Source: Cloacibacillus sp. (GTDB lineage Bacteria; Synergistota; Synergistia; Synergistales; Synergistaceae). From it: DNA of 52,830 bases. Positions 12,618-42,078 of the stretch are shown in pieces; position 1 is the stretch's first letter; each line of letters opens with the position of its first letter. The stretch is from contig JAVVPF010000022.1 in NCBI GenBank assembly GCA_036655895.1, positions 1-52,830 on the forward strand, written 5' to 3'. Below the pieces are notes generated by a model. The model saw only the letters and a list, made by a program, of their open reading frames with translations, was not told where the DNA came from and made no database searches. A program made the position numbers and the translations under genes.

Positions 12618-12668
12618 ATAAAAAGCGCGGCGCGTTCGGACAAACTCCCGAGCGCGCCGCGCTTTTTT
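12618..12668. terminator. Bidirectional terminator between metQ and the hybrid kinase
   Basis: GCGCGGCGCG (from 12625) pairs perfectly with CGCGCCGCGC, extended inward by TTCGG/CCCGAG pairing. A-rich sequence lies to the left and six T residues to the right, so it can serve both convergent genes. The right-hand T-run touches the hybrid kinase stop codon. Confidence 0.9.
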
Positions 12669-20280: not shown

Positions 20281-20344
20281 TTCTTATGTTCTCCAATATG
20301 CAAAGTTTTGTTTCATCCTCATAACTTGCTTATGTGCATTTACG

Positions 20345-21496: not shown

Positions 21497-21499
21497 TTC

Positions 21500-23643: not shown

Positions 23644-23644
23644 C

Positions 23645-23853
23645 TTACATACCTCTAATCACTTGCTCTATTAGGCAAGTAAATTTTTTTATATTATTAG
23701 ACTTTGAATATTTATCTTCATATAGACGACGCGCATTATTACCCATGGTTATATTTTCGGGACTATTATTCTTTAAAAATTTAATATATGCCGATAAATG
23801 TTGCGGTTGCCCCTGTAAGACAGAAAATCCGGCCGCGTATTCTTTATTGACAA
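23645..23853 (-). pseudogene. GT4 glycosyltransferase, C-terminal remnant
   Basis: On the minus strand an open frame without a start reads NKEYAAGFSVLQGQPQHLS, then NNSPENITMGNNARRLYEDK and ends with VIRGM and a stop at 23645. The segment is the donor-binding C-terminal end of a GT4 enzyme. It overlaps, in another frame, the end of the truncated pyruvyltransferase frame. The rest of the glycosyltransferase gene is missing. Confidence 0.65.
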
Positions 23854-24081
23854 TAATCTTCTCAAAAACTCTTTAGGTTTATTTTTTACCCCCAAGTCAT
23901 ATTTTGCAGGCAACATGAGCTGTGGTATATAAGGCAAGATAAGAGAATCTGGACGATAATTGATGATGGTAGTATCCGCTGCCGGACTCAAATGCGTTAA
24001 AAGCGAACGCAACGCGTAGGCTTGAAGTATTGCACCATAATTTTTTGCACAATGAAATGTGAGAATACCTATTTTCAACAA
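23773..24081 (-). pseudogene. Polysaccharide pyruvyltransferase, N-terminal remnant
   Basis: A 102-codon frame begins LKIGILTFHCAKNYGAILQAY, a clear N-terminus of polysaccharide pyruvyltransferases (CsaB/WcaK family). These enzymes normally have about 330-400 residues. The homologous part seems to end near the residues LRRLLSIKN. The remaining codons are the wrong-frame reading of the glycosyltransferase tail. The likely start is a TTG with an AAGGAAGG site. The gene is a 5' fragment fused by a deletion to another gene's 3' end and should be non-functional. Confidence 0.7.
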
Positions 24082-24210
24082 AACATACCTTCCTTCGCGT
24101 ACATAATATAAATATCAAAACCATAAAATGTTATTAATTTTTGACAAGCTATTTTTATAAATTGTAACCGACATTTTGTTGCTTGATCTATACAAATATC
24201 ACCTCTATAC
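24069..24210 (-). pseudogene. Unrecognised C-terminal gene remnant
   Basis: A minus-strand frame without a usable start reads LNALYRGDICIDQATKCRLQ, continues with IACQKLITFYGFDIYIM and stops at the start of the pyruvyltransferase remnant. The stop/start overlap is what one expects of two formerly adjacent operon genes. I do not recognise the family. The rest of the 24086-24265 gap is AT-rich and shows nothing else. Confidence 0.3.
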
Positions 24211-24265
24211 AGTGCATTTAGATTATAAATTTATTGTCTATAAAATACAGGATAGCTCCGTGTGT

Positions 24266-25360
24266 TTAGAGAAATTTGTAAGGAACTATATTTTGCCAAT
24301 TAGTAATTAGCATGAAAGCGTGATAAATTGTACATATTAAAATTATAATTAGATTAAACACCATTTTATCAAAAACAATTAGAGGAGATTGTTGTTTACA
24401 CACTTGTCTAGGAGTTGGCAAGAGAATCTGAGGAATAGCGACGGCGACAAATGGAATACACAACATCATCATCCTTGTAAGCATTCTCATGTTAACAAAG
24501 AGAAGCGCACACATACTTAATAGTATGGCATAGCCGAAAAATTCATTGCCAATTTTTATACGACACTGCCCTAAATTAAACCATAACGTCACCAGTATGA
24601 CAAAATACATCACACAAGTCTTTACCCCACCGCTAAATTCACCTACCCAAAACCCTATCTTCGAATATATAGAGGCGCTGTTTATTGCATTGAGGCTCCA
24701 CAGTACCATGGGGGTCAGATAAAAATATAACAAAATGGACGTCCCTATAATAAATAAAATTTTAAAATGCGTCCATTTAATATTATACATAAAATACAAA
24801 GGGATAAAAAGAACGGCTGACTTATGAAAAAAACTTGCAAGAATTATCAATAAAGTAAAGAAAAAAAATCTTCTTTGTCTCACAAGGCTATACCCAAATA
24901 AAAAAATAGAAAATGCTAGATATTGCCTTAAAATATCGAACGATGTGTAATAATAGGGCAGAGAAATAAACACAAACATACTATACAACAAACTATTCGA
25001 ATATTTATAAAAAAATAATACACATGATGATACTGTCACAAAACTACATACATACAACAGTGTTCTTGCATCTCCCCCCAAAAGAGCGATTCCCTTACAC
25101 AGTGCAACAAACCCTTTTTCAATCCAAGGAGCGCCTGTCAAACCGGGGCTAGAATCTATGATTTTAAATATAACAAAGTAGGTTTCTGTATCCCAACCAA
25201 CAGATTCGGCACGCGATCCTGCCAAAAAAGTAAATTGAAGTATTGAAAATAAGGCATAAAATTTTTTTCTAAGGCTCCACTGAGCACCTGTAGGCGCTCC
25301 ACAAAAGACTAAAACGCCAACAACAATATTAATAACAAAAGAAACGATATAAACTGTCAC
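24266..25360 (-). CDS. EpsG-family polysaccharide polymerase (Wzy-like)
   Basis: Integral membrane protein of 364 residues with about ten hydrophobic segments. It shows the EpsG pattern: an early GSRAESVGWDTETYF, then a YTSFDILRQYLAFSIFLFG segment and an ASFFHKSAVLF segment. In Wzx/Wzy-dependent pathways such proteins polymerise repeat units on the periplasmic face. As the only polymerase candidate in the cluster it most likely serves as Wzy. The gene is very AT-rich. It lies 14 bases after the upstream GT2 gene and just before the scar region. Confidence 0.83.
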   Translation of the reverse strand: MTVYIVSFVINIVVGVLVFCGAPTGAQWSLRKKFYALFSILQFTFLAGSRAESVGWDTETYFVIFKIIDSSPGLTGAPWIEKGFVALCKGIALLGGDARTLLYVCSFVTVSSCVLFFYKYSNSLLYSMFVFISLPYYYTSFDILRQYLAFSIFLFGYSLVRQRRFFFFTLLIILASFFHKSAVLFIPLYFMYNIKWTHFKILFIIGTSILLYFYLTPMVLWSLNAINSASIYSKIGFWVGEFSGGVKTCVMYFVILVTLWFNLGQCRIKIGNEFFGYAILLSMCALLFVNMRMLTRMMMLCIPFVAVAIPQILLPTPRQVCKQQSPLIVFDKMVFNLIIILICTIYHAFMLITNWQNIVPYKFL

Positions 25361-25374
25361 TTTATCTGTTCATC

Positions 25375-26292
25375 CTAGCAAATTGCTAATTTTAGTAGTC
25401 TATGTGGGACACAAAAGCACATTAATGTAGCTGCGTAACGCCAATTTCTTTTACAATGGACGGATTTTAGAAACACGATTGCTTCTGACCTACTACCTTC
25501 AAAGAGTGCCCTTCTACAACAAGACATATGATATCGATCTATCACACGTAGAATATGCTTTTTTTTCACCTGTGATATTCCACTATCATTCAATATATCC
25601 CCATTCCTTTTCGCAAATCGCCACGAATAAGTCCAAGCATCATTTTTGGTGGCAGTACTTTCCATGCGATTATAAACAGCTGTTGTCTCTTTAGCAAAGA
25701 CAATTGGGTAATATGCAGCTGCTCGAAACCACATATCCGTGTCTTCTCCGATTGTTTCGCCAGGTTCGAATAACCCCACTTTCTTAAACACATCTTTATG
25801 AATACAAATTGTATCTGTATTGAATACAATCGAAGAGTATCTTAGATATAAGTCAAAAAAATCTTCTATTAAGACCATATCTTTCAAATTTTCTTTAAGA
25901 AACCGCCCTGTATGTACCCTTTTCCCGTTAGGAAGGATTATTTCCACTGGCGTTGCAAATAATTTTTCCCCCGGGTAGGATTTTATCATCCTAACTAATG
26001 TCTCTAGGCGATTTGGTCTCCATATATCATCTGCATCTAAAAAACAGATATACTCCCCGTTGCTCTTTTTTATACCAGTATTGCGAGCGCACGAAACTCC
26101 TGAATTAGATTGATTCACAATAACCACTTGCTCATTTATATATTGTTTAAGAACATCTTCTACGCCATCGGTAGAACCATCATTAACAACTACCAACTCA
26201 TAGTTGGTATACGTCTGATTTAATACGCTTTTTATAGTTTGCTCCACGGTTGATGCTTTATTATATACAGGGATTATTATAGAAAACTTCAT
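25375..26292 (-). CDS. Glycosyltransferase family 2
   Basis: A 305-residue GT-A enzyme. The N-terminal 110 residues have the full GT2 signature: FSIIIPVYNKASTVEQTI, VVVNDGSTDG, SCARNTGIKKSNGEYICFLDADDIW with the DxD motif. The later EPGETIGEDTDMWFRAA contains the ED acid pair often used as catalytic base. It would add a sugar to the lipid-linked repeat unit at the cytosolic membrane face. The specificity is not predictable. It lies 30 bases downstream of another GT2 gene. Confidence 0.92.
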   Translation of the reverse strand: MKFSIIIPVYNKASTVEQTIKSVLNQTYTNYELVVVNDGSTDGVEDVLKQYINEQVVIVNQSNSGVSCARNTGIKKSNGEYICFLDADDIWRPNRLETLVRMIKSYPGEKLFATPVEIILPNGKRVHTGRFLKENLKDMVLIEDFFDLYLRYSSIVFNTDTICIHKDVFKKVGLFEPGETIGEDTDMWFRAAAYYPIVFAKETTAVYNRMESTATKNDAWTYSWRFAKRNGDILNDSGISQVKKKHILRVIDRYHMSCCRRALFEGSRSEAIVFLKSVHCKRNWRYAATLMCFCVPHRLLKLAIC

Positions 26293-26322
26293 TTTTTCAC
26301 CATCCTGGTTTGTCTAACGTTC

Positions 26323-27315
26323 TCATCTACTATTAATAAATTTTTTTACTTTAGCTAATAATGACAAGAGACTGACAAACGAATATTTAGCCAAGAATAA
26401 ATATGTCCTCTGGAACCGTGAGAAAAAAACAGCGTCTTTCTTTATTGGCTCAAGCAAAGCCTTTATATTAATAACATTTAATTCTTTTTTTATTTCATCT
26501 ATTGTGGCTCCTAAATAAAATCTCTTTATAATATTTGAATATATGACCTCCCTAACATAGAGTACTTTTAGTTCATAATCAAACCTGCCGGCCAATCTTT
26601 TCTCTATTTCTCTATAAGCTACTATAGAAGATTCAACTGAAATCAGTTTATCGTCATGCATTATCGAATGATCGCATTGCACATAGTAATACAACGCATT
26701 ACGTAGGTAATAAATTTTATTACAAAAGGCGAAAGCAACTTTAGTAAAAACCAAATCTTCATTTCTCATTAGATTAGCAAATTCAATATTATGCTCAATG
26801 AGCATATCTCGCAAAAACGCTTTTCCATGAATCGCAGCACCGGTATGCTTAATGGCATTTTCAATAGAGATGTAACAAGAAGGCTCATCTTTATAGACAA
26901 TATTATTTATCATATATTGTCTATTACCCCCGCATCGTTCAAAATAAACATCAAATATAATGGCTTCGGCTTTTACACGAGCGATAGTGTCTATTAACAG
27001 ACCAATAGTATTATGAGCCAGATAATCATCGCTATCTAAAAAGAGGATATAATTTCCTTTAGCTTGTTTTACTCCAAAATTCCGCGTTGGGCCGGGACCA
27101 AGATTGAGTTTATTTCTAAAAACAGATACTGCAAATAAACTAGAAACTTCATTCTTAAAATGACATAATACCCTTAAGGTATTGTCTGACGACTGATCAT
27201 CAACAAAAATAACCTCAAAGGAATGGCATGTCTGAGCCTTCAAAGATTCTAAGCAACGGCTGATTTTATTTTCACTGTTATATACCGGTATTATAATTGA
27301 AATATAATTTTCCAT
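26323..27315 (-). CDS. Glycosyltransferase family 2
   Basis: A 330-residue GT2. The N-terminal domain shows ISIIIPVYNSENKISRCLES, FVDDQSSDNT, GPGPTRNFGVKQAKGNYILF and the DxD in LDSDDYL. The later NLMRNEDLVFTKVAFAF carries the ED motif. The C-terminal 100 residues are helical and basic. It is distinct from the neighbouring GT2, so the repeat unit should contain at least four transferred sugars counting all transferases in the cluster. The first gene downstream starts after 30 bases. Confidence 0.92.
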   Translation of the reverse strand: MENYISIIIPVYNSENKISRCLESLKAQTCHSFEVIFVDDQSSDNTLRVLCHFKNEVSSLFAVSVFRNKLNLGPGPTRNFGVKQAKGNYILFLDSDDYLAHNTIGLLIDTIARVKAEAIIFDVYFERCGGNRQYMINNIVYKDEPSCYISIENAIKHTGAAIHGKAFLRDMLIEHNIEFANLMRNEDLVFTKVAFAFCNKIYYLRNALYYYVQCDHSIMHDDKLISVESSIVAYREIEKRLAGRFDYELKVLYVREVIYSNIIKRFYLGATIDEIKKELNVINIKALLEPIKKDAVFFSRFQRTYLFLAKYSFVSLLSLLAKVKKFINSR

Positions 27316-27357
27316 ATTAATTCTATTGCCCTCTCACTACAGCAACAACAATGGACA

Positions 27358-28404
27358 CTATCTAGGCTCATACTTGTTGAGAAACTGCTCCAAACACCAG
27401 ATTTGCCATTTTTGGTTGCCAGAAAATTTAGTTATATCAAGGTTTTTCTTAAATTCTGGACGTTTAGGGCCTTGCCATTCTGCAAAGTACATATCTACAG
27501 GTCGAGGCATGGGAATCTTATCGGGAATAGGCATCCCAGGATATTTCATAGAAAAAAGTTCGCGAATTAGATATTTAGGTTCTCCATGACGTACACGAAA
27601 GAGATCAAGAGTGTCCACCATTTCAAGGCGAGCGTATGGATCATAATATGGCATATTAGCTGCAGAAAAGGCGTTCCAGTAACTACTAGAACTCTCAATT
27701 GCAAACACATCTTTCATAAATAGTAAAAAATCTATACAGTGCCCCTTTGTACGATATCGTTCAAACAAATATTCCACCCCAACAGGATTTGCTAGAACCT
27801 CTGCCGGTTGAGTAAAGATATAGCGTTGCATAAATGCATCAAAGGTCCAATCACATGCAAGTAGTCCATCCATGCCCCCAAACAAAAGATCGCTACTTTC
27901 CCCAACAATCATCATTTCGATAGCATCCGATTGAGCCTCAATAGCTCCTTGTAAAATTTGAGGTTCAATAGAATGGACGGGAGCTGCTTTTGCCTCCATA
28001 ACAGCATCTAGATTCTTTTCCACTGTAGCCCACGTAATATCAATATAATGTAGATTTAAGTCGTAACATTCAGCGTAATATTTAGCACGCTGTAACTCTT
28101 CCTTTTGAAATTCGCCTCCCAAAAATCTAAAGGTATATGCATCACACCCGCGCATGTACGAAGCAAGAATCGCAGAATCCATCCCCCCAGAAAGGAGGAT
28201 ACCTAGTTTCTTGTGGCATATTTTTAAAAATTGATTTTCAATCATACGATTAATGTCATTCGCACTACGTACAAATAGTTTCTCCGAATCCGATACGGGG
28301 GGGATGCTCTCATGACGCATCCCTATATAGAAATTTTTCATGTCATCTTCAATATACCTAAAGGCTAAGTAGGAGCTCATACAATAATCCTTATCTACAC
28401 TCAT
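27358..28404 (-). CDS. Asparagine-synthetase-like PP-loop protein lacking the glutaminase domain
   Basis: About 348 residues with the ATP pyrophosphatase (PP-loop) domain of AsnB: KLGILLSGGMDSAILASYM near residues 65-85. Further parts match the synthetase domain, including AKAAPVHSIEPQ and VGESSDLLFGGMDGLL. The N-terminal glutamine amidotransferase domain with its Cys2 is absent. It therefore would need free ammonia or a partner, or it activates another substrate. In surface-glycan loci such proteins are suspected of amidating uronic acids or modifying acidic substituents; that is inference. The ATG at 28404 (MSVDKDYC) follows a GGGAG site and is preferred to 28425. It lies between a cytidylyltransferase and a GT2. 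Confidence 0.82.
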   Translation of the reverse strand: MSVDKDYCMSSYLAFRYIEDDMKNFYIGMRHESIPPVSDSEKLFVRSANDINRMIENQFLKICHKKLGILLSGGMDSAILASYMRGCDAYTFRFLGGEFQKEELQRAKYYAECYDLNLHYIDITWATVEKNLDAVMEAKAAPVHSIEPQILQGAIEAQSDAIEMMIVGESSDLLFGGMDGLLACDWTFDAFMQRYIFTQPAEVLANPVGVEYLFERYRTKGHCIDFLLFMKDVFAIESSSSYWNAFSAANMPYYDPYARLEMVDTLDLFRVRHGEPKYLIRELFSMKYPGMPIPDKIPMPRPVDMYFAEWQGPKRPEFKKNLDITKFSGNQKWQIWCLEQFLNKYEPR

Positions 28405-28514
28405 TTCACTCACTCCCTTTTCCATATCGGTTATTCATCTCATAGCATTTGCTATTTGTGCATATAGCAAAAAAACTCTTCACTATAAGACAGTATGCCC
28501 TAGCTTCACGGTTG

Positions 28515-28937
28515 CTAAAGTGAACTGCTACGAAGTTTCAGCAGTGTTTGGTTTAGTATTGTTGAACTTGTGCCTTGAGTGTAGGGGAAATAAATTATTT
28601 GAATCCCTTCTTGTGAAAATTGTTTGTCAAATTCTTGCCATTTTTGAGTATTATACCAATCGTCACCCACAAACATAATATTTGCTTTTAACTTTTTGCA
28701 CATTTCCAGCTTGTTCATATCGTACTGAGGGACTACAGCATCAACAAATTTTATGCTTCTCACAATCTCCATCCGCTCACTAAATGGAATTACAGCCTTT
28801 TTACCTTTATAAAGCACAAGTTCATCAACTGTGACAGCAACAATCAGCCTATCGCACATTCCTTTTGCATTCTTGAGAAGGTTTACATGTCCAATGTGAA
28901 ACAGGTCATACACGCCTGCTGTATAGCCTATAATCAT
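28515..28937 (-). CDS. Cytidylyltransferase, TagD/GCT-like
   Basis: A 140-residue nucleotidyltransferase. The HxGH motif is in GVYDLFHIGHVNLLKNAK, and the protein continues with VAVTVDELVLYKGKK, IPFSERMEIVRSIKFVD and FVGDDWYNT. The C-terminal TQGTSSTIL corresponds to the RTEGISTT signature of glycerol-3-phosphate cytidylyltransferases, but with altered residues. It probably activates a phospho-alcohol as a CDP derivative for the LicD protein encoded just upstream in the transcript. The alcohol could be glycerol, choline, ribitol or another. A 155-bp AT-rich gap separates it from licD, in which I see no feature. Confidence 0.87.
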   Translation of the reverse strand: MIIGYTAGVYDLFHIGHVNLLKNAKGMCDRLIVAVTVDELVLYKGKKAVIPFSERMEIVRSIKFVDAVVPQYDMNKLEMCKKLKANIMFVGDDWYNTQKWQEFDKQFSQEGIQIIYFPYTQGTSSTILNQTLLKLRSSSL

Positions 28938-29093
28938 GTATCATATCCTCCTATTTATATAAATATTAGTTGCTTCCCTTACTAGATTACCCGTATCTAT
29001 AATGTATGCAGCTGATAGAGAACATTCAAAGTATTTTATTGAAGAAACAAATAGTAGTATGGATGTGGATACACATTGTTAATTATCATCAAC

Positions 29094-29930
29094 TTACTCC
29101 TTATCTAACTTAATCTTGTAAGGCCTATGCCCATACCGCTTTTTTTCAGGTGGTAACTGCGTATAATTTCCAAACAACCTATGCAAAAAAACGTCATAGT
29201 CTTGCGGCGCACATATTGTTGTGGTTTCAAACTCTTGCCTTGTTATGGGGTAAATTTCTGATGTAGTTAGGTACTTTTTATATCCATAACCACTTGGCAG
29301 TGTCAACTTTCCACTTCCGCAATCTCTATATCGTTTCAGTGTGGTATCTAATTTATAATAAATAAATTTTTTATGTATTGGCCTCATCAGAACAAATAAA
29401 GCGGCTCTAATGGCTGCGCGCATTAGACCTTTTAGATCATCAACCGACCCCATGGTCTTATAAGTATTTTTGGCCACGAATAGTTGTTCCCAAAAGAAAC
29501 ATTGTCTGCAAAATTTTTTTGATTCATCGCCGTTTCGTGGTATCTCATCCAACGGGAATATATCAAGAAAGATTCCTTGATGCATATTCCGTTTTATCGT
29601 ACTTGACTCTATAAACAACGTACCATTAAGTCTTAACTTTGCTTGATATGCGGTAGTCCCAGGATCCGTTTCGAATGTTTGCAAAAAAAATTCTTTTCCT
29701 AGTTCGCGTGCGGCCAAATTAAGAAATTTTTCGTAGTCTTCTCGTTTCAACGCAACATCAATATCATCGTCCCATGGGATGAAACCGTGGTGGCGAATTG
29801 CTCCCAACAAGGTGCCTCCAATGGCAATGTATTGAATTTCGAGAATGTTACATAGTCTTTCAAATTCATTAAGTAACTCCAGCATCCTTTGATGTAGTAT
29901 CTTAAGCTCATTTTCGCTAAGTCTTTGCAT
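29094..29930 (-). CDS. LicD-family phosphotransferase
   Basis: A 278-residue member of the LicD family of nucleotidyltransferase-fold enzymes. These transfer phospho-alcohols such as phosphocholine from a CDP donor to glycans. The signature is IGGTLLGAIRHHGFIPWDDDIDVALKREDYEKF, which contains the catalytic Asp residues (WDDDIDV) near residue 53. Later GIFLDIFPLDEIP is also typical. The cytidylyltransferase encoded next in the operon may make its donor. The gene lies 33 bases after a GT2 gene. Confidence 0.92.
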   Translation of the reverse strand: MQRLSENELKILHQRMLELLNEFERLCNILEIQYIAIGGTLLGAIRHHGFIPWDDDIDVALKREDYEKFLNLAARELGKEFFLQTFETDPGTTAYQAKLRLNGTLFIESSTIKRNMHQGIFLDIFPLDEIPRNGDESKKFCRQCFFWEQLFVAKNTYKTMGSVDDLKGLMRAAIRAALFVLMRPIHKKFIYYKLDTTLKRYRDCGSGKLTLPSGYGYKKYLTTSEIYPITRQEFETTTICAPQDYDVFLHRLFGNYTQLPPEKKRYGHRPYKIKLDKE

Positions 29931-29963
29931 ACAGTTTTCTCCAATTAATAGATTATTTTTTAC

Positions 29964-30791
29964 TTAGCTTCTTAAAAATCTTTTATATACCCATTCTCGT
30001 AAAGAATTAGGCATAGTGGCTATGATGAATTGAAGCCATATCGTGCAGAGATAGTCCAACTGTGAAATGTACCCGGTCTCTAGGATCCTTTTCTTGCCAG
30101 AGCGGTATTTTCTAAAATATCCCAATCCGCCCCTGCGTTCATACATATCTTTTCCCGTTCTTACAAAAACAAGAGAATCGTCAATATTGCAACAAGTTGC
30201 CCCGGCCAGAATCATATTGATCCACAACAGGCTGTCTTCCATCAACATTGCGTGTTGATAATTCCCTGCTTTTAGAACAGTGCTTTTTTTATACATAACG
30301 CTCATATGATTAAATGCGTCACGTCTTCTTTCGTATTTTTTTATTTCTTTATCCACAAGTGGAACGATACGCCTTGCAATAATTTTTTCGGGGGTATCAT
30401 AAAATTCACTTATATGGCTGCCGCAAATATCTAGACTGGGATTTTTTACAAATTCGTTCAGTTGTTTTTCAAAGCGATCATTTCTTGCAACATCATCCGT
30501 ATCCATTCTGGCAATAAGTTCATTGGAACATTGTATTATTCCTTCTCTGAGCGCCAGTCCCAGCCCTCGATTTTGAGTTAATGGCACTCGTTTAATAAGG
30601 TTAGGATATTTGTTGTTATATTCTTCAAGTAGTAAATATAACTCGTTCGTTAATGGACCGTCTTCAACAACAACCCATTCATCGGCTGGAACAGTCTGCC
30701 TTAACAGGCTTTCAAAACAGGCTCTGACGTATTCCGGCTTTTCTTTGATATAGAGCGACATTAGAACGCTGAATTTAGTTTCTATCATCAT
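29964..30791 (-). CDS. Glycosyltransferase family 2, AmsE-like
   Basis: A 275-residue GT2 with FSVLMSLYIKEKPEYVRACF, VVVEDGPLTNEL, NRGLGLALREGI and ARMDTDDVARNDRFEKQ, where DTDD is the metal-binding DxD. The LMEDSLLWINMILAGA segment has the ED pair. The short N-terminal spacing and MSLY start resemble AmsE-type transferases of exopolysaccharide clusters. It overlaps the priming transferase by 4 bases, so it is a good candidate for the second sugar on the lipid carrier. Confidence 0.9.
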   Translation of the reverse strand: MMIETKFSVLMSLYIKEKPEYVRACFESLLRQTVPADEWVVVEDGPLTNELYLLLEEYNNKYPNLIKRVPLTQNRGLGLALREGIIQCSNELIARMDTDDVARNDRFEKQLNEFVKNPSLDICGSHISEFYDTPEKIIARRIVPLVDKEIKKYERRRDAFNHMSVMYKKSTVLKAGNYQHAMLMEDSLLWINMILAGATCCNIDDSLVFVRTGKDMYERRGGLGYFRKYRSGKKRILETGYISQLDYLCTIWLQFIIATMPNSLREWVYKRFLRS

Positions 30792-31498
30792 TCCACCATA
30801 GCCAGCACTGTTCTTGCCATTGTCTGTATATCTTTGTAGAAGCTGAAATTTTTCAAACTGTTCAGGTTATATTTCATCTTCCCTGGTAAAACTTTGCTTA
30901 TATAGACGTCATCAACAAAATCAGCCGTGGCAAGCAACTTTTCCTCGTCTTTGTATATGATGCTGGTTTCCGAGGTGACTCCAGCGGGCAAAAGCAGTGT
31001 GGCGTACATCTCATCGTTATATTTATTCACATATTTTTCTACCTCAGGCCGCGTTCCAACAAAGCTCATCTCACCAACTATGATGTTGATGAGCTGGGGA
31101 ATTTCGTCCATCCTATACTTCCGGAGTATTTTGCCGATTTTCGTAACACGCACGTCATTTTTTACTGTGACCTGCGCCCCGAGTTTTTCCGCATTGGCAA
31201 TCATTGTGCGGAATTTGAATATCCGAAATTTTTTACCATACTGCGTGACGCGCTCCTGACGGAAGAATACTCCGCCTTTTCCGTCAATAACTATCGCAAG
31301 CGAAATGATGAGGATTATCGGCGAAAGGATAACGAGCATCAAACTGGCTGACACAATGTCGAATACACGCTTCAAGAGCAAGGCCTCTTTTTTTGCTATT
31401 AGAAGATCATAGTAAGGACGCACAGCTTCAGTCCTCATATAATCCGGTAGCTCTTCCCATGTTTTGAGCATTCTTCTTACAGACATCTTTTTACACAC
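30788..31498 (-). CDS. Priming sugar-phosphate transferase (PglC/WcaJ-type)
   Basis: Polyprenol-phosphate sugar-1-phosphotransferase of 236 residues that starts the repeat unit. It has one hydrophobic segment (ASLMLVILSPIILIISLAIV), then FFRQERVTQYGKKFRIFKFRTM, KYRMDEIPQLINIIVGEMSFVGTRPE, all signatures of the bacterial sugar transferase family. It is small like PglC and lacks the N-terminal multi-helix domain of WcaJ or WbaP. The adjacent aminotransferase and acetyltransferase suggest its substrate is a UDP-diacetamido sugar of the bacillosamine type. Its frame overlaps the aminotransferase by 22 bases; a later start at 31486 is possible. Confidence 0.92.
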   Translation of the reverse strand: MCKKMSVRRMLKTWEELPDYMRTEAVRPYYDLLIAKKEALLLKRVFDIVSASLMLVILSPIILIISLAIVIDGKGGVFFRQERVTQYGKKFRIFKFRTMIANAEKLGAQVTVKNDVRVTKIGKILRKYRMDEIPQLINIIVGEMSFVGTRPEVEKYVNKYNDEMYATLLLPAGVTSETSIIYKDEEKLLATADFVDDVYISKVLPGKMKYNLNSLKNFSFYKDIQTMARTVLAMVE

Positions 31499-32673
31499 TC
31501 TATTACATAGGCTACCTCTTCATCTGTGTAGCATGTATGAAGTGGCAACGTGACTTCGTTTTTGAACTGTTCATACGCATTGGGGTAGTCGGCAATGTTA
31601 AAGCCTAATTTCTGATAGGCTGTGTGCATTGGCAATGGTTTGTAATGAACGTTTGTCGCCACTCCCATTTCCGCCATTTTTTCAATGAAACTGTTTCTCT
31701 CTTTAACGTCTTTTCCTTTTAACCGCATGACATAGAGATGCCCGGAAGAGATATATTCTTTTGCATAATGCCTCGCTGTTTCTACCGGCAACTCAGCGAA
31801 AGCTGCATCCAGTCGTTCTACTATTTCTCTCCTGCGCGAAAGAATCGCATCGTATCTTTTAATTTGGGCAAGCCCGATGGCCGCGTGAATGTCGGTCATA
31901 TTGCATTTGTACCACAGCCCAGCCACATCGTATTCCCATGTACCAAGCTTCGTTTTCGCCAAAGCGTCTTTGCTTTGTCCATGCAGACTTAGCAACATGT
32001 AACGGTGATAGAGTTCTTCGTTGTCTATGCCTGCAATATCGTTCCAGGTAACTGCGCCACCCTCGGCAGTGGTCAAGTTTTTGACGGCGTGGAATGAGAA
32101 GTCCGTAAAATCGGCGACGGAGCCTATCGGTTCTCCTTTGTATGAAGCTCCGAAAGAATGTGCCGCATCACCTAAGATTATTACTCTGCCCACCGCTTGC
32201 TGTATTTTGTTGTTAGATGGAATGAAGATGTCGCGTTTTTTCTCTACGATTTCCCTAATGCGGTCATAGTCGACTGGGATGCCAAATAAATCCACCGGTA
32301 TTATCACTTTGGTATTCTCTGTTACGGCGGATTCAAGCTGGTCATAGTCCATAGTAAATTTGTCTTGCGCACAGTCAACCATGACAATCTTAGCGCCAAC
32401 ATGTTCGACAACACTAGCACTTGCCGTATATGTATAAGCAGGGACAATGACTTCACTACCAGACCCAACGCCTAAAAGTCGGAGTGTCATCTCGGAACAT
32501 GCCGTGTTAGAGTTTAGGCAGACAGCCTTTGACGTATGACAGCGCTTTGCTATCGCACGTTCCAGCTCTTTTGTTCTAGGGCCAGTGGTGATCCAACCAG
32601 ATTTCAGCGTATTTATAACTTCGTTAATTTCTGCCTCTGTGATATCCGGAGGACTAAATGGTATATGCTTCAT
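31477..32673 (-). CDS. DegT/DnrJ/EryC1 nucleotide-sugar aminotransferase (PglE-like)
   Basis: PLP-dependent aminotransferase of 398 residues that converts UDP-4-keto-6-deoxy-sugars into 4-amino sugars. The N-terminus IPFSPPDITEAEINEVINTLKSGWITTG is classic. The PLP lysine is in FSFHAVKNLTTAEGGAV near residue 200. Further matches are SNTACSEMTLRLLGVGSGSEVIVPAYTYTASASVVEHVGA-type segments and GDAAHSFGA. It overlaps the acetyltransferase by 4 bases and the priming transferase by 22, forming a tight PglD-PglE-PglC-like block. The dehydratase that would supply its 4-keto substrate is not adjacent. Confidence 0.92.
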   Translation of the reverse strand: MKHIPFSPPDITEAEINEVINTLKSGWITTGPRTKELERAIAKRCHTSKAVCLNSNTACSEMTLRLLGVGSGSEVIVPAYTYTASASVVEHVGAKIVMVDCAQDKFTMDYDQLESAVTENTKVIIPVDLFGIPVDYDRIREIVEKKRDIFIPSNNKIQQAVGRVIILGDAAHSFGASYKGEPIGSVADFTDFSFHAVKNLTTAEGGAVTWNDIAGIDNEELYHRYMLLSLHGQSKDALAKTKLGTWEYDVAGLWYKCNMTDIHAAIGLAQIKRYDAILSRRREIVERLDAAFAELPVETARHYAKEYISSGHLYVMRLKGKDVKERNSFIEKMAEMGVATNVHYKPLPMHTAYQKLGFNIADYPNAYEQFKNEVTLPLHTCYTDEEVAYVIECVKRCL

Positions 32674-33209
32674 ACAGTTGCCTCCGCTTTATCTTTTAGA
32701 AATTTTTGTTTATCTTGCCCCGCCACTTCGCCAAAGCCCATCTTCGTCCCGGCAAGGATTACAGAATTCGGCCTGACTACGAAACCACAGTTGATATGGC
32801 ATCCGTCGCCTATGAAGACGTTATGGCCCACTACTGCTCCTGCGGAGACAATGACACCTACGGACAGCTCCGTATTGGTTTGTATAACGGCCATAGGTTC
32901 AATGATGCTGCCCTTCTTTACGACCGCCGAAGGGCTGACGTAGGCTTGCGGGCTTATCAATATTGCGACATGTAAAAAGGTTTTGCTCAGTTTTTCTATC
33001 CACCGCAGACGAATATCAGCGTCACCGATAGCAACGGCGGTATATGCATATTCTCCGGAGTATTTTTTGTAGTCAGTAAGACACCCTATTGCCAGAGCAC
33101 TGTTATCGTCCAACAAATCTATCTTGTCGAAATATTTCATGGATATGGCAATTTCTTTTGCCATCATGCCGTATACTCCGGCTCCGAGGATAAGTAGGTT
33201 ATTGTTCAA
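32670..33209 (-). CDS. Sugar N-acetyltransferase, PglD/NeuD-like
   Basis: A 179-residue acetyl-CoA-dependent enzyme of the left-handed beta-helix type. The N-terminal Rossmann-like part begins NLLILGAGVYGMMAKEIA. Hexapeptide repeats follow from about residue 88 (ISPQAYVSPSAVVKKGSIIE and VGHNVFIGDGCHINCG). In PglD it acetylates the 4-amino group made by PglE. The start overlaps the end of the helicase gene by 11 bases, so the helicase and the glycan genes are one transcript. Confidence 0.88.
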   Translation of the reverse strand: MNNNLLILGAGVYGMMAKEIAISMKYFDKIDLLDDNSALAIGCLTDYKKYSGEYAYTAVAIGDADIRLRWIEKLSKTFLHVAILISPQAYVSPSAVVKKGSIIEPMAVIQTNTELSVGVIVSAGAVVGHNVFIGDGCHINCGFVVRPNSVILAGTKMGFGEVAGQDKQKFLKDKAEATV

Positions 33210-35769
33210 CTCCCCACACCATCCTTTCCGGATTATTATGCGTTGCCGTTTTTGTAATATTCAGAGCATTCAGTTTCTCTATCTGCTCTCGCGATAGTTT
33301 GCCATGTTTGCACAATATCTTTTGTCTGGCCATCCATTGTTCTATGCGGATTTCATCTTCGGCCTTGCAGCAGTTTGCAACATTGATATTGCCCCTTGCC
33401 TCAAGTAGACGCTCTGCTGTCTTATATTTCTCGCACCATGCCCGTTCAAACGGTGTGCGCCAGTCAACACCCAACTCCTCTAGCTGCTGTATCTGTCTAT
33501 TGGTCAATTTTTTGCCCTTTAGTTCACCTCGGTACATCCGCCGGCATTCATAGAGCCATTTTCCAAGCCAGATTCCACCAACCACATAGTGGGCTGGAAT
33601 CGCCAAATCGCCATGCTCCATTAAGTACTCTCTGCAGGCCGTGATGCGTGTCTGCCATGAATCTTCCGCTGTCCATTTAAAACCAAGTTCGTCCAGCTTC
33701 GCGCGGCGTTCCGGCGTGACTTTGATCGAAGTTCTACCTGTTTTAGAATTGACATCGACATGATTCTTTAACCACCCGCCCAGGGGAAATCCGTTTTTAT
33801 TGACATAAGACAGTGGGACGTCTAAAGAACCGAACTCTCTATAGTAGGCTACGGCCTGTTCATAGCCGTATGCCCATCTGCGAGTGTACGCGTCAACCCA
33901 GTCCATCTGAATGGCATCAAGTCGTTCTATTTGGGAGGCAGTGAGCGGGGCAGAGCCGTACAGCCTCCCGCTTCTTATCTTTCTCATTCTGCTTACCCAT
34001 GCCCCAATACGCATCCCATTAGGATCTATATATCCTGCCGGTATGTTGAGATGATGGTGTATTAGGTAATATTCCGCGCAGGCAAGGTAGTTCTTCTCCC
34101 ATATATAGTCAAGTTTGTCCCATATCATGCCCAGTTTGTTCAAAACCGCGATACGCTCGTCCGTAAGATAGCAACCACGCCTACCGTTGTTTTTAGACTG
34201 GCGGAGGTTGCAAAGATATTTCCCAAGCTCAAGTCCATCCGGGGTCACATAATCAGCGCAAATATCGATATTGCCGTTCTTTGAGCGATATCGGCAGAGC
34301 GCATCATAGTATCTTTCCCATAAGTACTCGTAGCGATTCTTCCAGCGCATTGCAATACTGTCCAGTTGGGCGATCCTATCATTTCCAAGAATGCCTGGAA
34401 TCTTACCGGAACGCACAAGGCGCTGCGTGTTGAGCCATGAACCAAGGGAGCACCCCTCCGGGGTCCTATAACGTTTGGGAACATCAAGATGGCCATGTTC
34501 GTTATAATAAGCCCTTGCGTAGCTGAACATAATTTCCCATGAGGTGGACAGCATCTCTTCTAGTTCGTTGAAGAGCAACCTGCTGTCGCGCGCCTCATCG
34601 ATAATGGTGAAGCTGTCATTGACGACAAGCGAATTTTCTCCCAAAGCGTTGTATGATTCTATGGCAAAACACATCTCCTCTTGTAGCACGGAGATGCTGT
34701 AAAGGTTTTCGATATTGTTCACGACATCAATGATGACGGTTTTTTGGGGACTTCCCGCAGACAACGCACGTCCTATCTGCTGTTTGTAAATAATAGGAGA
34801 CACCGTGGGACGAAATAGAATCACGCCAGAAATATCATCTATATGGACGCCTTCGTTGAGCATGTCAATGCATAGCAGGAGCTTTAATCCTGCGCTCTTA
34901 TCCGTCTTGAAAGCCGCAAATGATTTACTCGTTGCAGGATCGTCGGCGTATACTTTGTATATACGCGGGTTATTGTCTACTTTACCAAACCACTCATGTA
35001 TGTGACAGATTGCCTCTTTCAAATGTTCTACGTTGGAACAGAATACGATGTATTTGCCATTGGTATCAGTTATATGCTTTTGGAAAATAACATCTAGGCC
35101 CTCTGATTTTTCAAGTTGACGGCGAAGGGCGTCAAGACGTTTCTGAGCCTCGTCGCGAACAACTTTGTTTTTCGCTCCCTTGACGCGGAATTGATATCTT
35201 TCTAAATCTTTCTGACACGAATAAAGAGATATAACATAAGTTGGCGGGGCTAGGATGCCACGCACGACAACTTCACCAAGCGTCATTTGTGATGCGATGT
35301 TACCGTCAAAGAGCTCGTCAGCCATATCGCGCTGATTGTCCAGATAACGAATGTTCGTAGCGGAGAAACCCAAGATTTGCGACTCTGTGTACATGTCAAG
35401 CAACTTCCGCACGCCTACGCCCCACGCCTGAGCACCGCAACGGTGGAATTCGTCGAGGATGATATAGGCGGGACGAAGGGCTGAAAGTTCGTGCTCTCCC
35501 ATCAGCATGAGCCTGGCATAGGTGAAGAAACGGATATTCCGTGGCGTTACTCCTCCGGTGGCCTGCAAGTTTTCTATCTGTGTTTTAAAGATATTTTCGC
35601 TTGGAGAGAGCCAGCATACAGTGGCCTCGGGGTTATCCTCCGCAAGTTTAAAACCTATAAAAGATTTCCCCGTGCCGGTAGGATGGATGACGGCGGCTTT
35701 GCCTCTTTCTCTCAACATTAAAGCCGCTGATTCATAAGCTATTTGGTTATGTTTAAATAAGCCTATCAT
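33199..35769 (-). CDS. SF2 helicase with six helicase-associated (HA) repeats
   Basis: An 856-residue DEAD/DEAH-like superfamily 2 helicase. Walker A is HPTGTGKSF near residue 30, the Walker B box is DEFH (ILDEFHRC), motif III is FSATN and motif VI is QQIGRALS. The C-terminal half has six tandem repeats of about 70 residues. Each has the pattern of an aromatic-rich helix, G-x-L-x-V/I-P, G-x-x-LG-x-W and a final LD-x-x-x-x-x-W, matching the helicase-associated domain. These repeats may bind nucleic acid. The gene heads the glycan operon, overlapping the acetyltransferase gene, and is preceded by a palindrome and a serine recombinase. Its role in a glycan locus is unknown; candidates are locus mobility, transcription control or defence. 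A GGAGGGGG site precedes the ATG. Confidence 0.9.
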   Translation of the reverse strand: MIGLFKHNQIAYESAALMLRERGKAAVIHPTGTGKSFIGFKLAEDNPEATVCWLSPSENIFKTQIENLQATGGVTPRNIRFFTYARLMLMGEHELSALRPAYIILDEFHRCGAQAWGVGVRKLLDMYTESQILGFSATNIRYLDNQRDMADELFDGNIASQMTLGEVVVRGILAPPTYVISLYSCQKDLERYQFRVKGAKNKVVRDEAQKRLDALRRQLEKSEGLDVIFQKHITDTNGKYIVFCSNVEHLKEAICHIHEWFGKVDNNPRIYKVYADDPATSKSFAAFKTDKSAGLKLLLCIDMLNEGVHIDDISGVILFRPTVSPIIYKQQIGRALSAGSPQKTVIIDVVNNIENLYSISVLQEEMCFAIESYNALGENSLVVNDSFTIIDEARDSRLLFNELEEMLSTSWEIMFSYARAYYNEHGHLDVPKRYRTPEGCSLGSWLNTQRLVRSGKIPGILGNDRIAQLDSIAMRWKNRYEYLWERYYDALCRYRSKNGNIDICADYVTPDGLELGKYLCNLRQSKNNGRRGCYLTDERIAVLNKLGMIWDKLDYIWEKNYLACAEYYLIHHHLNIPAGYIDPNGMRIGAWVSRMRKIRSGRLYGSAPLTASQIERLDAIQMDWVDAYTRRWAYGYEQAVAYYREFGSLDVPLSYVNKNGFPLGGWLKNHVDVNSKTGRTSIKVTPERRAKLDELGFKWTAEDSWQTRITACREYLMEHGDLAIPAHYVVGGIWLGKWLYECRRMYRGELKGKKLTNRQIQQLEELGVDWRTPFERAWCEKYKTAERLLEARGNINVANCCKAEDEIRIEQWMARQKILCKHGKLSREQIEKLNALNITKTATHNNPERMVWGVEQ

Positions 35770-35817: not shown

Positions 35818-35865
35818 TAATGCTGTGCGGCGAAAAAGGTGTACCTTTTTCGCCGCACAGCATTA
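35818..35865. repeat. 48-bp perfect palindrome with a 2-bp centre
   Basis: Arms of 23 bases (35818-35840 and 35843-35865) are exactly complementary around a central GT at 35841-35842. The inner part is AAAAAGGT/ACCTTTTT and the outer part is GCTGTGCGGCG/CGCCGCACAGC. It lies in the 210-bp gap between the serine recombinase and the helicase genes. The two-base centre fits a serine-recombinase crossover site, but no activity is shown. It lacks a trailing T-run, so it is not a standard terminator. Confidence 0.9.
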
Positions 35866-35952
35866 ACTCAGTTATTGACTTTTATGTTGATTCGTTGTAT
35901 TAATAGTAGAGGGTTTAAAAAAGAGGAACGATATTGTTAGCTTTTTTATAGT

Positions 35953-35979
35953 GGTGTAAAAGATACACCTTTTTCGCCG
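35953..35979. repeat. Half-copy of the palindrome arm plus a short inverted repeat
   Basis: ACCTTTTTCGCCG at 35967-35979 is identical to 13 bases of the right palindrome arm (35843-35855). Just before it, GGTGTA (35953-35958) and TACACC (35964-35969) form an inverted repeat. The element abuts the recombinase stop codon and is about 125 bases from the palindrome centre. It could be an accessory recombinase site. The rest of the 35770-35979 gap shows no clear promoter. Confidence 0.6.
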
Positions 35980-36582
35980 TTATTGCTCTTTGCCGCAGCC
36001 AGAGACCCAGCGCTTGAATGTCATGTGATTGATTTTAAGACGCTGAGCAGCATATCTGGCAGAGATTTCCCCTCTTTCCCATGCGCTTTTGAGGGCTTCA
36101 AATTCCATGGGGCGCTCTTTGGGTTTACGGCCCAGATTGCAGCCTCGCGCTTTTGCTGCGGCGATCCCTTCAGCTTGCCTTTGTCGGATGAAATCTCGCT
36201 CGGTCTCCGCGACGTAGCTAAGCAGTTGCAATACTATGTCAGCAATTAAAATGCCCGTAAGGTCTCGGCTCTGTCGAGTATTAAGAAGGGGCATATCCAA
36301 TACAACGATTGCAGCCTGTTTTTCTTTTGTCAGAATCCGCCATTGTTCAAGAATTTCGTTGTAATTACGCCCTAGCCGGTCAATACTTTTTATCACTAGA
36401 ACGTCGTCCTGTTTTATTTTTCGCATCAACCTTTTGTAGCCGCGCCGTTCAAAATCTTTGCCCGACTGTTTATCAAGAATGATATTTTCCACCGAGACGC
36501 CATATTCCAACATCGCGGCTCGTTGCCTCTCTTCATTTTGTTCCTTGGAAGAGACTCTTATGTACGCATATTGTTTACCCAT
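35980..36582 (-). CDS. Serine recombinase, resolvase/invertase type
   Basis: A 200-residue small serine recombinase. The catalytic serine is in AYIRVSSKEQNEERQ near residue 8. The arginine motifs follow as VIKSIDRLGRNYNEILEQW, and the E-helix region as LLSYVAETERDFIRQRQAEGI. A C-terminal helix-turn-helix of the Hin type ends the protein (ISARYAAQRLKINHMTFKRWV). The domain order separates it from IS607-type TnpA, whose DNA-binding domain comes first. The ATG at 36582 (MGKQYAYIRVSS) has a GGAGG site 8 bases upstream. Codons read upstream include this site and are not used. It lies at the right end of the AT-rich island and is transcribed toward the palindrome. Confidence 0.93.
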   Translation of the reverse strand: MGKQYAYIRVSSKEQNEERQRAAMLEYGVSVENIILDKQSGKDFERRGYKRLMRKIKQDDVLVIKSIDRLGRNYNEILEQWRILTKEKQAAIVVLDMPLLNTRQSRDLTGILIADIVLQLLSYVAETERDFIRQRQAEGIAAAKARGCNLGRKPKERPMEFEALKSAWERGEISARYAAQRLKINHMTFKRWVSGCGKEQ

Positions 36583-37981: not shown

Positions 37982-38938
37982 TTAGATTATTTTCCTTGGG
38001 CGGCCTACCGGCTTTTTCTTTTCTCCGGTAAGTATCTCGCCCGCGTAGACGGCGGCGTTTTCGTAGAAGGGCGCGAGCGTCTGGCGGAACGGGTGTTCGC
38101 CGCGCCAGAAGGGAAAGTCGTTCATGACGCCTAAAGCAGCGGCGCGGCGCTGGATGTCCGGCTCCGGCCTTTCAAAGGAAAATTCTCCAGATTTATACCA
38201 GTCGGCGTCTATCCGCGGCACGTCGTCTGCGGCAGGCATCGGCGGCTCTTCGTCGTCGGAGCCGCCAAGCAGCGCCTCTTCGCGTTCTTCGTCCCATTCG
38301 TATCCCGGCTCGCACTCGCCGTCCGCCTCGTCCGACGCGCTTTCAAGCGTCAGCAGGTTTATCAGCGATTCTTTGTCAAGGCCGCGCAGCCGCAGCAGTA
38401 TGAACGGGTCGTCCTCCAGCTCTTCGGCCAAAATGAGCAGCACCGCGATTATGTGTTTGCAGGGAGAGGCGTCGTCCGGGCAGGTGCATTTGAAGCGGCG
38501 CAGCGCATTTCGCGTCGGAAAGAGCGGCGTGCCCGCCTCTTTGAATATCTCTTCCATCTCCGCCGGCATCTCTCCGGCCAGCAGTTTCGCGGCAAAGGTG
38601 GCGCTTTCGCGGCACCGGAAGAGGATAAGGTCCCGCGCCTCGGAAGTTATCGTCTCAAAGCCCAGCCGTATCTGGTAGGGAGTCTTGCGCGTGCCCTGTA
38701 CGAAGGCTGTGACAAGCCCCGGCTCTATCTGTATGTTGACCACCTGTCCGCGGCGCGCGTAGCTTTTGCCGCGCGCGAGACGCCCCGCGTCGATGCACTG
38801 TTCCATTATCTCGACCCAGCGGCGCGACCACCAGTTTGAACCGTAGCTGTGCCCGCGCGCCGTGCGTGATTTTATCCCGCAGCGCGTCTCGCGCGGCTTT
38901 TTATATTTGTAGAATTTCACTTCGCCATCGAATGCCAT
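37982..38938 (-). CDS. SWIM zinc-finger protein
   Basis: A 318-residue protein with the SWIM motif RFKCTCPDDASPCKHIIAVLL near residues 157-177 (C-x-C-x-n-C-x-H). The N-terminal region contains GSNWWSRRWVEIMEQ, a segment typical of bacterial YwqB-like proteins. The C-terminal third is acidic (DEADGECEPGYEWDEEREEAL) and ends with a basic GRPRKII tail. SWIM domains bind DNA or proteins. The gene starts one base before the stop of the SNF2 gene is complete (TAATG), so both proteins are coupled and probably act as a complex. Confidence 0.88.
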   Translation of the reverse strand: MAFDGEVKFYKYKKPRETRCGIKSRTARGHSYGSNWWSRRWVEIMEQCIDAGRLARGKSYARRGQVVNIQIEPGLVTAFVQGTRKTPYQIRLGFETITSEARDLILFRCRESATFAAKLLAGEMPAEMEEIFKEAGTPLFPTRNALRRFKCTCPDDASPCKHIIAVLLILAEELEDDPFILLRLRGLDKESLINLLTLESASDEADGECEPGYEWDEEREEALLGGSDDEEPPMPAADDVPRIDADWYKSGEFSFERPEPDIQRRAAALGVMNDFPFWRGEHPFRQTLAPFYENAAVYAGEILTGEKKKPVGRPRKII

Positions 38939-41900
38939 TATAGATTCTCCACCGCGTCCTTATCCAATGAGAACAGTTCGTGCAGATCGCTGTCGGAAAT
39001 TTCGGTGAGCCAGCTTTCGCCTGTGCCGACCAGCATCTGCGCAAGTTCTTTTTTACTCTCTATCAGTTTTTCTATTTTTTCTTCAAGCGTTCCGCGGCAG
39101 CAGAAGTAGTGCACCTGAACGTTGTTCTCCTGCCCTATGCGGTAGGCGCGGTCTACAGCCTGCTGCTCGACGGCTGGGTTCCACCAGCGGTCGAACATTA
39201 TGACGTGGTTTGCGCGCGTGAGGTTCAGCCCAGTGCCTCCGGCCTTAAGCGACAGCACGAAGAATGGCGGCGCGTCTTCGTCCTCCTGGAAGCGGCGCAC
39301 CATCTCCGCGCGTTTTTCGCGAGGCACGCCGCCGTGAAGGAAGAGCGCCTCGCGCCCGAAGGTCTCCTGAAGGAATTTTTTGAGCAGCGCGCCCATCTCG
39401 GCGTACTGAGTGAAGATGAGAGCGCGGTCGCCGGCGGCGAGCATCTCCTCCGCAAGCTCCGAAAGCCGCGCCATCTTGCCGGAACGGTTGTCATATTCCG
39501 ATTTGTCTTTTATGTAAAGCAGCGGATGATCGCATATCTGTTTGAGCGCCGTTATCGCGCCAAGCACGATGCCTTTGCGCTGTATGCCCTCCGCGCCCGA
39601 AAGAGAACGCGCAAGCGCCGTTGTGACCGTGCTGTAAAGCGTCGCCTGCTCGCGCGAGAGCGGGCAGAATTCTTTTGTCTCTATCTTCTCCGGCAGGTCG
39701 CTGATTATTTCTTTGTCGGTCTTCAAGCGGCGCAGGATGAACGGAGCGGTGAGACGGCGCACCTTGTCCATCGCCTTTTTTTCTCCCGCCTGCACGGGGC
39801 GCAGTATTTCGCGCGAGAAGCGCGCGCGGTTTGGCATTAGGCCCGGCATCAGAAATTCCATAAGCGACCACATGTCGCCCACGTGGTTCTCCACCGGCGT
39901 TCCCGTGAGAGCGATATGCCAGTCGGCGCGTATGGAGCGAGCCGCGCGCGACTGGCAGGTGTCGGGGTTCTTTATGTTCTGCGCCTCGTCGAGAATGACT
40001 CCGGCCCAGTCTACCTTTGAAAAGAGTGTGTTGTCGCGGTAGAGCAGCGAGTATGACGATATTACAATGGTGTCGGCGAGCGCCTCCGCCGTGAAGGCCT
40101 CTTTTTTGTTGCGTTTCTGGCCGTGGTGGAGCAGCGTCTCCATGCCGGGGACGAATTTCTGCGTCTCGCGGCGCCAGTTTTCCATTACGGAGGTGGGGCA
40201 GATGAGCAGCACGGGACGTTTTTCGCCCATCGCGCGCAGTTTTTTTATCAAAGCGAGCGTCTGTACGGTCTTGCCGAGTCCCATATCGTCTGCAAGACAG
40301 GCGCCCATGCCCATTTTGACCAGCCGCGCAAGCCACGCAAGCCCTTTTCCCTGATAGGGCCGAAGCGTGCCGACAAAGCCGTCCGGCGGCTCCATCTCTT
40401 CCAGCGGCGCGGCTCCCGTGAGCATCGAGCGCACGGAGGCGAGCCACGGAGAGCCGGTCACTTCGGAGATGGGCGCGTCGTTGTGCTCCTCTCGCAGCGA
40501 GGAAAGCAGCGCCTCTTTGCGCTCCATCTTCTCCGGCAATTTTTTGAGCGCGGATGTTATTTTTTCTATTTCGTCGCGGTAAAGTATCACCCAACGGCCG
40601 CGTATGTTGGTAAGCGGCGTCTTAAGCTCCGTAAGCATCTCAAGTTCGTCCGCGGTCAGTGTGTCTCCGCCGAGCGCGACGGACCAGTCTACGTCGAGCA
40701 TGTCCGTCAGCTTTATCTGCCCCTGCGCGGAGAAGGAGGCGGGGTCGCTCAGCGTCGCCTTAAGCGATAGTTTCGGGCGTCCCGAGAGGTCGCCCCACGC
40801 GCTTGGGAACTGCACCTGTATGCCTTCGTCCATGACGGCGGGCAGGTGGTTTTCAAGAAAATCGAACAGTTCATCGAGCGAGAGCCGGCATTCGCACGGG
40901 TACGGGGCGTCGAGGCTCGCCGCTATCGCGGGCACCCGCGCGGCCGTCTGCCCCAGTATCTGAAGCATGTAGCGGCGAGGGTTCGTCTGTGTGTGCTCAA
41001 ACCACCGGCGTTCGGCCTCAGTCGGGCTCCATACGCGTTCGGCGGGGATTATCAAGGTCGGGTCCTGCGTGGACTGGAGATGCCACGAGAGTATCCATTC
41101 CTTTTCTTTGGGCTTTTGTTTGCGCTTTGACTTCGGCGCGTCGCCTTCCAGCTCCTCTTCCGGCTCGTACGGCTCTTCGAGGCGCATAAAAAGCCGCCAC
41201 GGCTGCGCCGTCACCGCCTTAAGCGAGTCGGCCCAGGCTCGTATCTGCGGGTAGAGCGAGGTCATCTCTTCGTCCCATTTAAGAAGCGGCGCCTTTTGCC
41301 ATATAAGCGAACGAAGCCATATCTCGTGCGGGTTGCCGGCGTTCACCTTGCGCCCGCGTTCCGCGGCCTGAGACTGCGAGGCGCGTATCATCATGTCAAG
41401 CAGCGATTCAAGCAGGGAGAAGGAAGCGGCCCTCCGTCCGCGCGGCGCGGTAAAAGGCGCGGAGGCCGAAAGCCCGCAAAGAAGCGCCGGCATCGCCGAA
41501 GCGAACGCGGTAAATTCGTCCTGATATTTTGCAAGTATCATCGGACGCCATTGCGAGACGTAACCCGCCTCTTCCCGCTTCATGTCTGGCATGTAGGAGC
41601 CGCGCTGCACCAGCGCCGCCGTGTATTCGGCGGCGCGGCACAGATATTTTATGTCGTCGCCAAAGAGAACGCCGGGGATGCTGAGCCGCTCGTCGCTTTC
41701 GCGGTATAGGCGGATGAGCTCCATAAATTCGTCAAAGCTGAGCACGACGGCCTCCGTGGAATATAAAGCGGCGGTAATCGGCCCGTCGCTTGCCGCGTCG
41801 CCCAGTATCGGGTTTGAGGGAACCGGCAGGCCGCCGCGTGAGGGCAGAAGCAGAAATATCTCCGCCGTCTCTTCGGAAGAACTTTTTCTGCCGTGGCGTA

Positions 41901-42078
41901 TAGCCGCCTCTTTCAGCGCCGCGCGCAGCTCACGCGAGTCCGCGCCCCACGGATGCCTCGGCGCGCGCTCTGTTTCATTATTCGAGATATGCGAGAATTT
42001 TCTATGTTCAAAGGAGCACTCGCCCCATAGATATATTTTATCGTTTTCAAGTCCGCAGTGAAGAATTAACATAAACAA
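38938..42078 (-). CDS. SNF2/Rad54-family helicase
   Basis: A 1046-residue SF2 ATPase of the SNF2 family, like bacterial YwqA/HepA-type enzymes. The C-terminal half has LADDMGLGKTVQTLALIKKL (Walker A), LDEAQNIKNPDTC (motif II, DEAQ), ALTGTPVENHVGDMWSLMEF (motif III) and SLKAGGTGLNLTRANHVIMFDRWWNP plus QAVDRAYRIGQ (motifs V and VI). The N-terminal half is a less conserved SNF2-associated region with a linker rich in charged residues around position 310. It presumably translocates on double-stranded DNA. The SWIM protein is its partner. The start is either 42078 or the second ATG 6 bases downstream. Confidence 0.93.
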   Translation of the reverse strand: MFMLILHCGLENDKIYLWGECSFEHRKFSHISNNETERAPRHPWGADSRELRAALKEAAIRHGRKSSSEETAEIFLLLPSRGGLPVPSNPILGDAASDGPITAALYSTEAVVLSFDEFMELIRLYRESDERLSIPGVLFGDDIKYLCRAAEYTAALVQRGSYMPDMKREEAGYVSQWRPMILAKYQDEFTAFASAMPALLCGLSASAPFTAPRGRRAASFSLLESLLDMMIRASQSQAAERGRKVNAGNPHEIWLRSLIWQKAPLLKWDEEMTSLYPQIRAWADSLKAVTAQPWRLFMRLEEPYEPEEELEGDAPKSKRKQKPKEKEWILSWHLQSTQDPTLIIPAERVWSPTEAERRWFEHTQTNPRRYMLQILGQTAARVPAIAASLDAPYPCECRLSLDELFDFLENHLPAVMDEGIQVQFPSAWGDLSGRPKLSLKATLSDPASFSAQGQIKLTDMLDVDWSVALGGDTLTADELEMLTELKTPLTNIRGRWVILYRDEIEKITSALKKLPEKMERKEALLSSLREEHNDAPISEVTGSPWLASVRSMLTGAAPLEEMEPPDGFVGTLRPYQGKGLAWLARLVKMGMGACLADDMGLGKTVQTLALIKKLRAMGEKRPVLLICPTSVMENWRRETQKFVPGMETLLHHGQKRNKKEAFTAEALADTIVISSYSLLYRDNTLFSKVDWAGVILDEAQNIKNPDTCQSRAARSIRADWHIALTGTPVENHVGDMWSLMEFLMPGLMPNRARFSREILRPVQAGEKKAMDKVRRLTAPFILRRLKTDKEIISDLPEKIETKEFCPLSREQATLYSTVTTALARSLSGAEGIQRKGIVLGAITALKQICDHPLLYIKDKSEYDNRSGKMARLSELAEEMLAAGDRALIFTQYAEMGALLKKFLQETFGREALFLHGGVPREKRAEMVRRFQEDEDAPPFFVLSLKAGGTGLNLTRANHVIMFDRWWNPAVEQQAVDRAYRIGQENNVQVHYFCCRGTLEEKIEKLIESKKELAQMLVGTGESWLTEISDSDLHELFSLDKDAVENL

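Follow-up and report, generated by a model that had tools for sequence, protein, structure and literature searches.

The palindromic region between a serine recombinase gene and a surface-glycan operon is, with a probability of roughly 93%, an inverton, an invertible promoter through which that operon phase-varies. All positions refer to the window, that is, the whole stretch of 52,830 nucleotides analyzed. In the proposed mechanism, the adjacent serine recombinase would bind two 26-bp sites, cut at their GT cores, rotate and rejoin the ends, so that the 126-bp segment between the cores is inverted. In the assembled state, transcription from the promoter would run toward the recombinase 3' end, leaving the glycan operon OFF; in the inverted state, it would fire into an HA-domain helicase gene and the ~18-kb glycan operon, which would then be ON. 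Established at the level of sequence are the anatomy of the element, the inverted and matching cores, the promoter-like sequence with its conservation, and the inversion of homologous segments in relatives.

The starting point is a 48-bp perfect palindrome at 35818-35865, which proved correct as given in the preliminary description, with exact 23-bp arms and a GT center at 35841-35842. Elsewhere in the 52.8-kb window, no exact hairpin arm (loop of at most 10) is longer than 12 bp, so chance is excluded as the origin of the 23-bp arms. Alignment with the sites of relatives places the predicted helicase-proximal recombination site at 35829-35854 on the plus strand, where it reads GGCGAAAAAGGT-GT-ACCTTTTTCGCC (12+2+12, core GT 35841-35842). 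The palindrome thus consists of this 26-bp site and an 11-bp palindromic extension on each side, and the extension is not generally conserved. The predicted recombinase-proximal site lies at 35953-35978 on the minus strand and reads GGCGAAAAAGGT-GT-ATCTTTTACACC, with its core at 35965-35966. It is inverted relative to the first site, and the two have GGCGAAAAAGGTGTA and the identical GT core in common. The half-copy that had been described at the recombinase stop is the inverted partner site, but its reported length of 13 bp was too short: positions 35964-35979 (TACACCTTTTTCGCCG) repeat 35828-35843 exactly over 16 bp in inverted orientation, and the entire partner arm comprises 27 nt with 89% complementarity, 98 nt away, directly abutting the stop codon. 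The search for extra copies that the preliminary description had called for, carried out genome-wide in the 160-contig assembly, returned no other exact copy of the site. The argument that a genome lacking a second site would speak against recombination does not apply here, because the half-copy itself is the second site. An Rfam search of the window matched no RNA family.

Since the cores are identical and inverted, recombination between them would invert 35841-35966 rather than delete it. This predicted invertible segment measures 126 bp from core to core, and homologous segments occur in both orientations among relatives. The suggestion that the palindrome is a serine-recombinase inversion site with a 2-bp core is thus very probably right, given the inverted partner, the shared core and the inverted segments of relatives. 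What would invert is not a part of the glycan locus, as had been proposed, but a promoter piece upstream of it. The other proposal, a resolvase site at which DNA is deleted or mobilized, or a transposon end, is very improbable. The closest solved structures to the recombinase by sequence are indeed the resolvases Sin and gamma-delta, but the cores are inverted in the window and in nearly all relatives, the relatives show inversion and not deletion, and neither an accessory resolvase subsite nor a second flanking copy was found in the window or the genome. Inverted cores together with a promoter segment upstream of the operon point to an on/off switch and not to a mobilizer or resolvase site.

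The recombinase gene (35980-36582, minus strand) encodes a small serine recombinase of ~200 aa, presumed to be an invertase, that scores 98.8 bits against Pfam Resolvase. Its likely start is the ATG at 36582 behind GGAGG; a TTG at 36597 is an unlikely start. It is the sole PF00239 gene in the 160-contig genome assembly and presumably performs the inversion at both sites. Its catalytic motif residues are present (S in YIRVSS, R in IDRLGR, ER in VAETERD) in an intact frame, and their combination with two inverted sites of identical 2-bp core is that of a serine invertase with a dedicated switch. The same facts bear on the idea of a degenerate, locked switch, in which the inverted pair is real and this strain has ceased to invert. 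The inner half of the recombinase-proximal site is imperfect (ATCTTTTACACC), which would fit such decay; however, imperfect inner half-sites are common among the site pairs of relatives, and together with the intact recombinase this makes a locked state improbable. Flipping presumably still takes place in this strain. Further out, on the other side of the recombinase, lie a SWIM zinc-finger protein and then a 1046-aa ORF (37982-42078, minus strand).

The inverted repeats flank a segment with a promoter that, judged by its motifs, can face the target gene in one of the two orientations. This predicted promoter, TTGACT-17 nt-TATTAA (35875-35903, plus strand), points toward the recombinase 3' end in the assembled orientation and away from the helicase and glycan operon, corresponding to OFF. 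A simple promoter scan missed TATTAA, which lacks the final T, and the promoter was recovered by a weight matrix and conservation. Compared with shuffles, the window promoter by itself does not reach significance (p 0.32), and its support is its conservation: TTGACT-17-TATTAA is kept in five loci of close relatives (L096, L097, L117, L138, L144). In the window and in L096, L117 and L138 its direction is away from the helicase; in L097 and L144 it is directed at the helicase. Where recombinase and helicase adjoin each other in loci of the same bacterial family, the promoter of L096 has the orientation seen in the window, and the promoters of L097 and L144 (=L070) face the helicase. Near-consensus promoters are also enriched over 31 homologous segments, not all of them independent because some loci are related (12 at p <=0.05, combined p ~2e-13).

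Inversion is indicated by five pairs of related loci whose segments are reverse complements of each other. In L054/L061, the collinear flanks are 93% identical, and the segment matches in reverse complement at 93.8%, with the match stopping precisely at the sites. The flanks of L043/L047 are 81% identical and the segment 92% in reverse, and the paralogous loci L138/L144 within one genome also reach 92% in reverse. The remaining pairs are L096/L097 (73% in reverse) and L016/L023 (76% over part of the segment). Both orientations are therefore found between related species as well as between paralogous loci of one genome, and, as read from these alignments, segments homologous to that of the window evidently invert naturally in relatives.

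A family of 51 relatives of the window recombinase was collected in a scan of the sequence collection. A comparable inverted pair lies at the recombinase 3' end, within ~130 bp of the stop, in 27 of the 51, against a background of 10 in 520 shuffles (2%) and 25 in 821 windows elsewhere in the same loci (3%). The family site has a half-site ending in AAAGT, a 2-bp core and ACTTT, and is found at the recombinase 3' end in many Clostridia. In a blind test of the core, for which site pairs were picked without regard to it, 18 loci had cores matching in inverted orientation, five had the self-complementary AT, one matched in direct orientation and one in neither; the last two look like spurious pairs. 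The core varies between loci (AG, GT, AC, AT) and matches within each locus, a pattern as expected of a crossover dinucleotide, which would have to match within the pair and be otherwise free. The first genes downstream are often related to the surface, including Wzz, Bac_transf, CpsB/CapC, flagellin, S-layer/cohesin and repeat-containing surface proteins, and some are not, such as a metallo-beta-lactamase-fold protein and a SIR2-like protein. Two loci (L033, L036) carry an inverted pair with an AT core upstream of a flagellin gene (Pfam-checked in L033); this core is self-complementary, so orientation is not fixed there. The loci L071 and L072 of genus g5 have a recombinase without adjacent sites, and sites occur elsewhere in those genomes. 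In L062, two perfect 30-bp palindromic sites lie ~1.1 kb upstream of the recombinase, each extended to ~44-48 bp by different flanks; one of them ends in a T-run and resembles a bidirectional terminator.

The unusual length of the window palindrome raises the question of a second function. As a hairpin insulator, it would block read-through from the recombinase gene into the glycan operon, and only in the OFF state, as inversion breaks it. Palindrome extension was compared in the observed and computationally inverted states. The predicted RNA hairpin has -38.6 kcal/mol as assembled vs -12.3 kcal/mol after inversion, which agrees with such a role. However, the hairpin has a U-tract behind it on neither side; in most relatives, the part of the extension beyond 26 bp is close to chance level (mean 3.8-4.8/12 vs ~3 expected); and in the close relative L097, an extension of similar kind at this site accompanies the ON state. 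Nor does the region look like an intrinsic terminator, as there is no T-run beside the palindrome and the one feature picked up by a terminator scan is a weak 6-pair stem (35953-35969). The transcription-blocking hairpin of the preliminary description is consequently disfavored, and an insulator of this kind is unlikely. The extra length around one site is probably incidental and arose perhaps by template switching at an existing palindrome.

The first gene of the operon under the inverton encodes a DEAD/DEAH-type helicase with six helicase-associated (HA) domains (33199-35769, minus strand), which is the only HA-domain gene in the assembly. Downstream, all on the same strand, are the surface glycan biosynthesis genes (17526-33209, minus strand). 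Directly behind the helicase come a PglD-like gene, a DegT aminotransferase and a sugar transferase (Bac_transf), followed by glycosyltransferases, LicD, EpsG, polysaccharide epimerases (Polysacc_synt_2, UDP-GlcNAc 2-epimerase) and others. Terminator-like sites within the glycan operon (17526-33209) showed no excess over chance expectation, and the entire operon would follow the promoter. Just past the far end of the glycan locus, at 12667-16167 on the minus strand, lies a gene for a 1166-aa hybrid histidine kinase/response regulator. A defense role for the helicase was considered and is not supported, since the defense-system models match only its generic helicase domains. Eight complete copies of the helicase gene turned up in the bacterial family, and each of them stands first in a set of polysaccharide genes. 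Nothing relevant emerged from a literature search that combined HA helicases with phase variation or with polysaccharide. The association of the helicase reaches beyond the family of the window, since in a Ruminococcaceae assembly (L027:5138-9715) an HA helicase is found together with two recombinase genes and one inverted site pair.

Some related genomes contain several switches. No sites adjoin the recombinase (C12) of G005; the same sites instead precede three HA-helicase/polysaccharide operons, one with an intact pair and two on contigs that start exactly in a site. Another intact pair lies ahead of a gene recognized by eye as that of an MBOAT-like O-acyltransferase. Several contigs of this genome (L117-L119, L139-L142) end in or beside a recombination site, which would fit an assembly broken up by repeated or polymorphic switches. 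The two switches of G044 are paralogous, and one is in the opposite state to the other. A second helicase occurs in both G014 and G015, at the head of a polysaccharide locus whose upstream region is not invertible (L120, L121); read by eye, this region seems to contain a divergent XRE-like HTH gene. The window genome, in its 160-contig assembly, has a single site pair and not several promoters served by one recombinase; additional switches could be lost at contig breaks, as in G005.

Invertible promoters of this type are known from other bacteria, and the mechanism of the promoter switch is not new. The sites of Hin and Gin, hix and gix, are 26-bp imperfect palindromes with a 2-bp core. The present element resembles the Hin/Gin systems (Hin: PMC4513852) in its 26-bp imperfect palindromic sites with a 2-bp core in inverted orientation and, in L033 and L036, in a downstream gene that is or appears to be flagellin. 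It differs in that the window recombinase lies outside the invertible segment and the segment is merely 126 bp. The master DNA invertase Mpi of Bacteroides fragilis acts on invertible capsular polysaccharide promoters (PMC4747536). Shared with Mpi are a small serine recombinase, short promoter segments flanked by inverted repeats, the control of whole polysaccharide operons and, in G005 and G044, several switches with one recombinase per genome. In contrast, the window genome shows one switch adjoining its recombinase, the first gene of its operon is an HA-domain helicase and not upxY, and the recombinase scores 61.5 bits on the Mpi family model (NCBIfam NF009949), well below the curated cut-off of 272. 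Gut inverton catalogues (PMC11892184, PMC5903667) likewise describe intergenic promoter segments between inverted repeats beside surface genes. One of them reports inversion signatures in one of two Synergistetes species and in many Clostridia (PMC5903667), and passages of the other associate invertons for the most part with tyrosine recombinases (PMC11892184). In neither main text does the word 'helicase' occur (PMC11892184, PMC5903667), and neither the lineage nor the helicase-headed design of the operon seems to have been described in the literature searched.

A broader, tentative proposal is that the lineage has evolved a capsule-switching system of its own, comparable to that of Bacteroides, in which one serine invertase serves several promoters, each heading a polysaccharide operon with an HA helicase first. 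In this arrangement, the helicase may be an operon-specific expression factor in the position of the UpxY antiterminator, an analogy drawn from position. The inverton described here would add a phase-variable surface-glycan switch in a lineage for which the literature searched holds no detailed description. As the exact crossover points are defined, the orientation of the segment can be read directly from metagenomic reads. The analysis also defines a recognizable family of serine invertases and their sites, some of them ahead of capsule, S-layer or flagellin genes, and identifies HA-domain helicases as regular first genes of polysaccharide operons in the bacterial family of the window.
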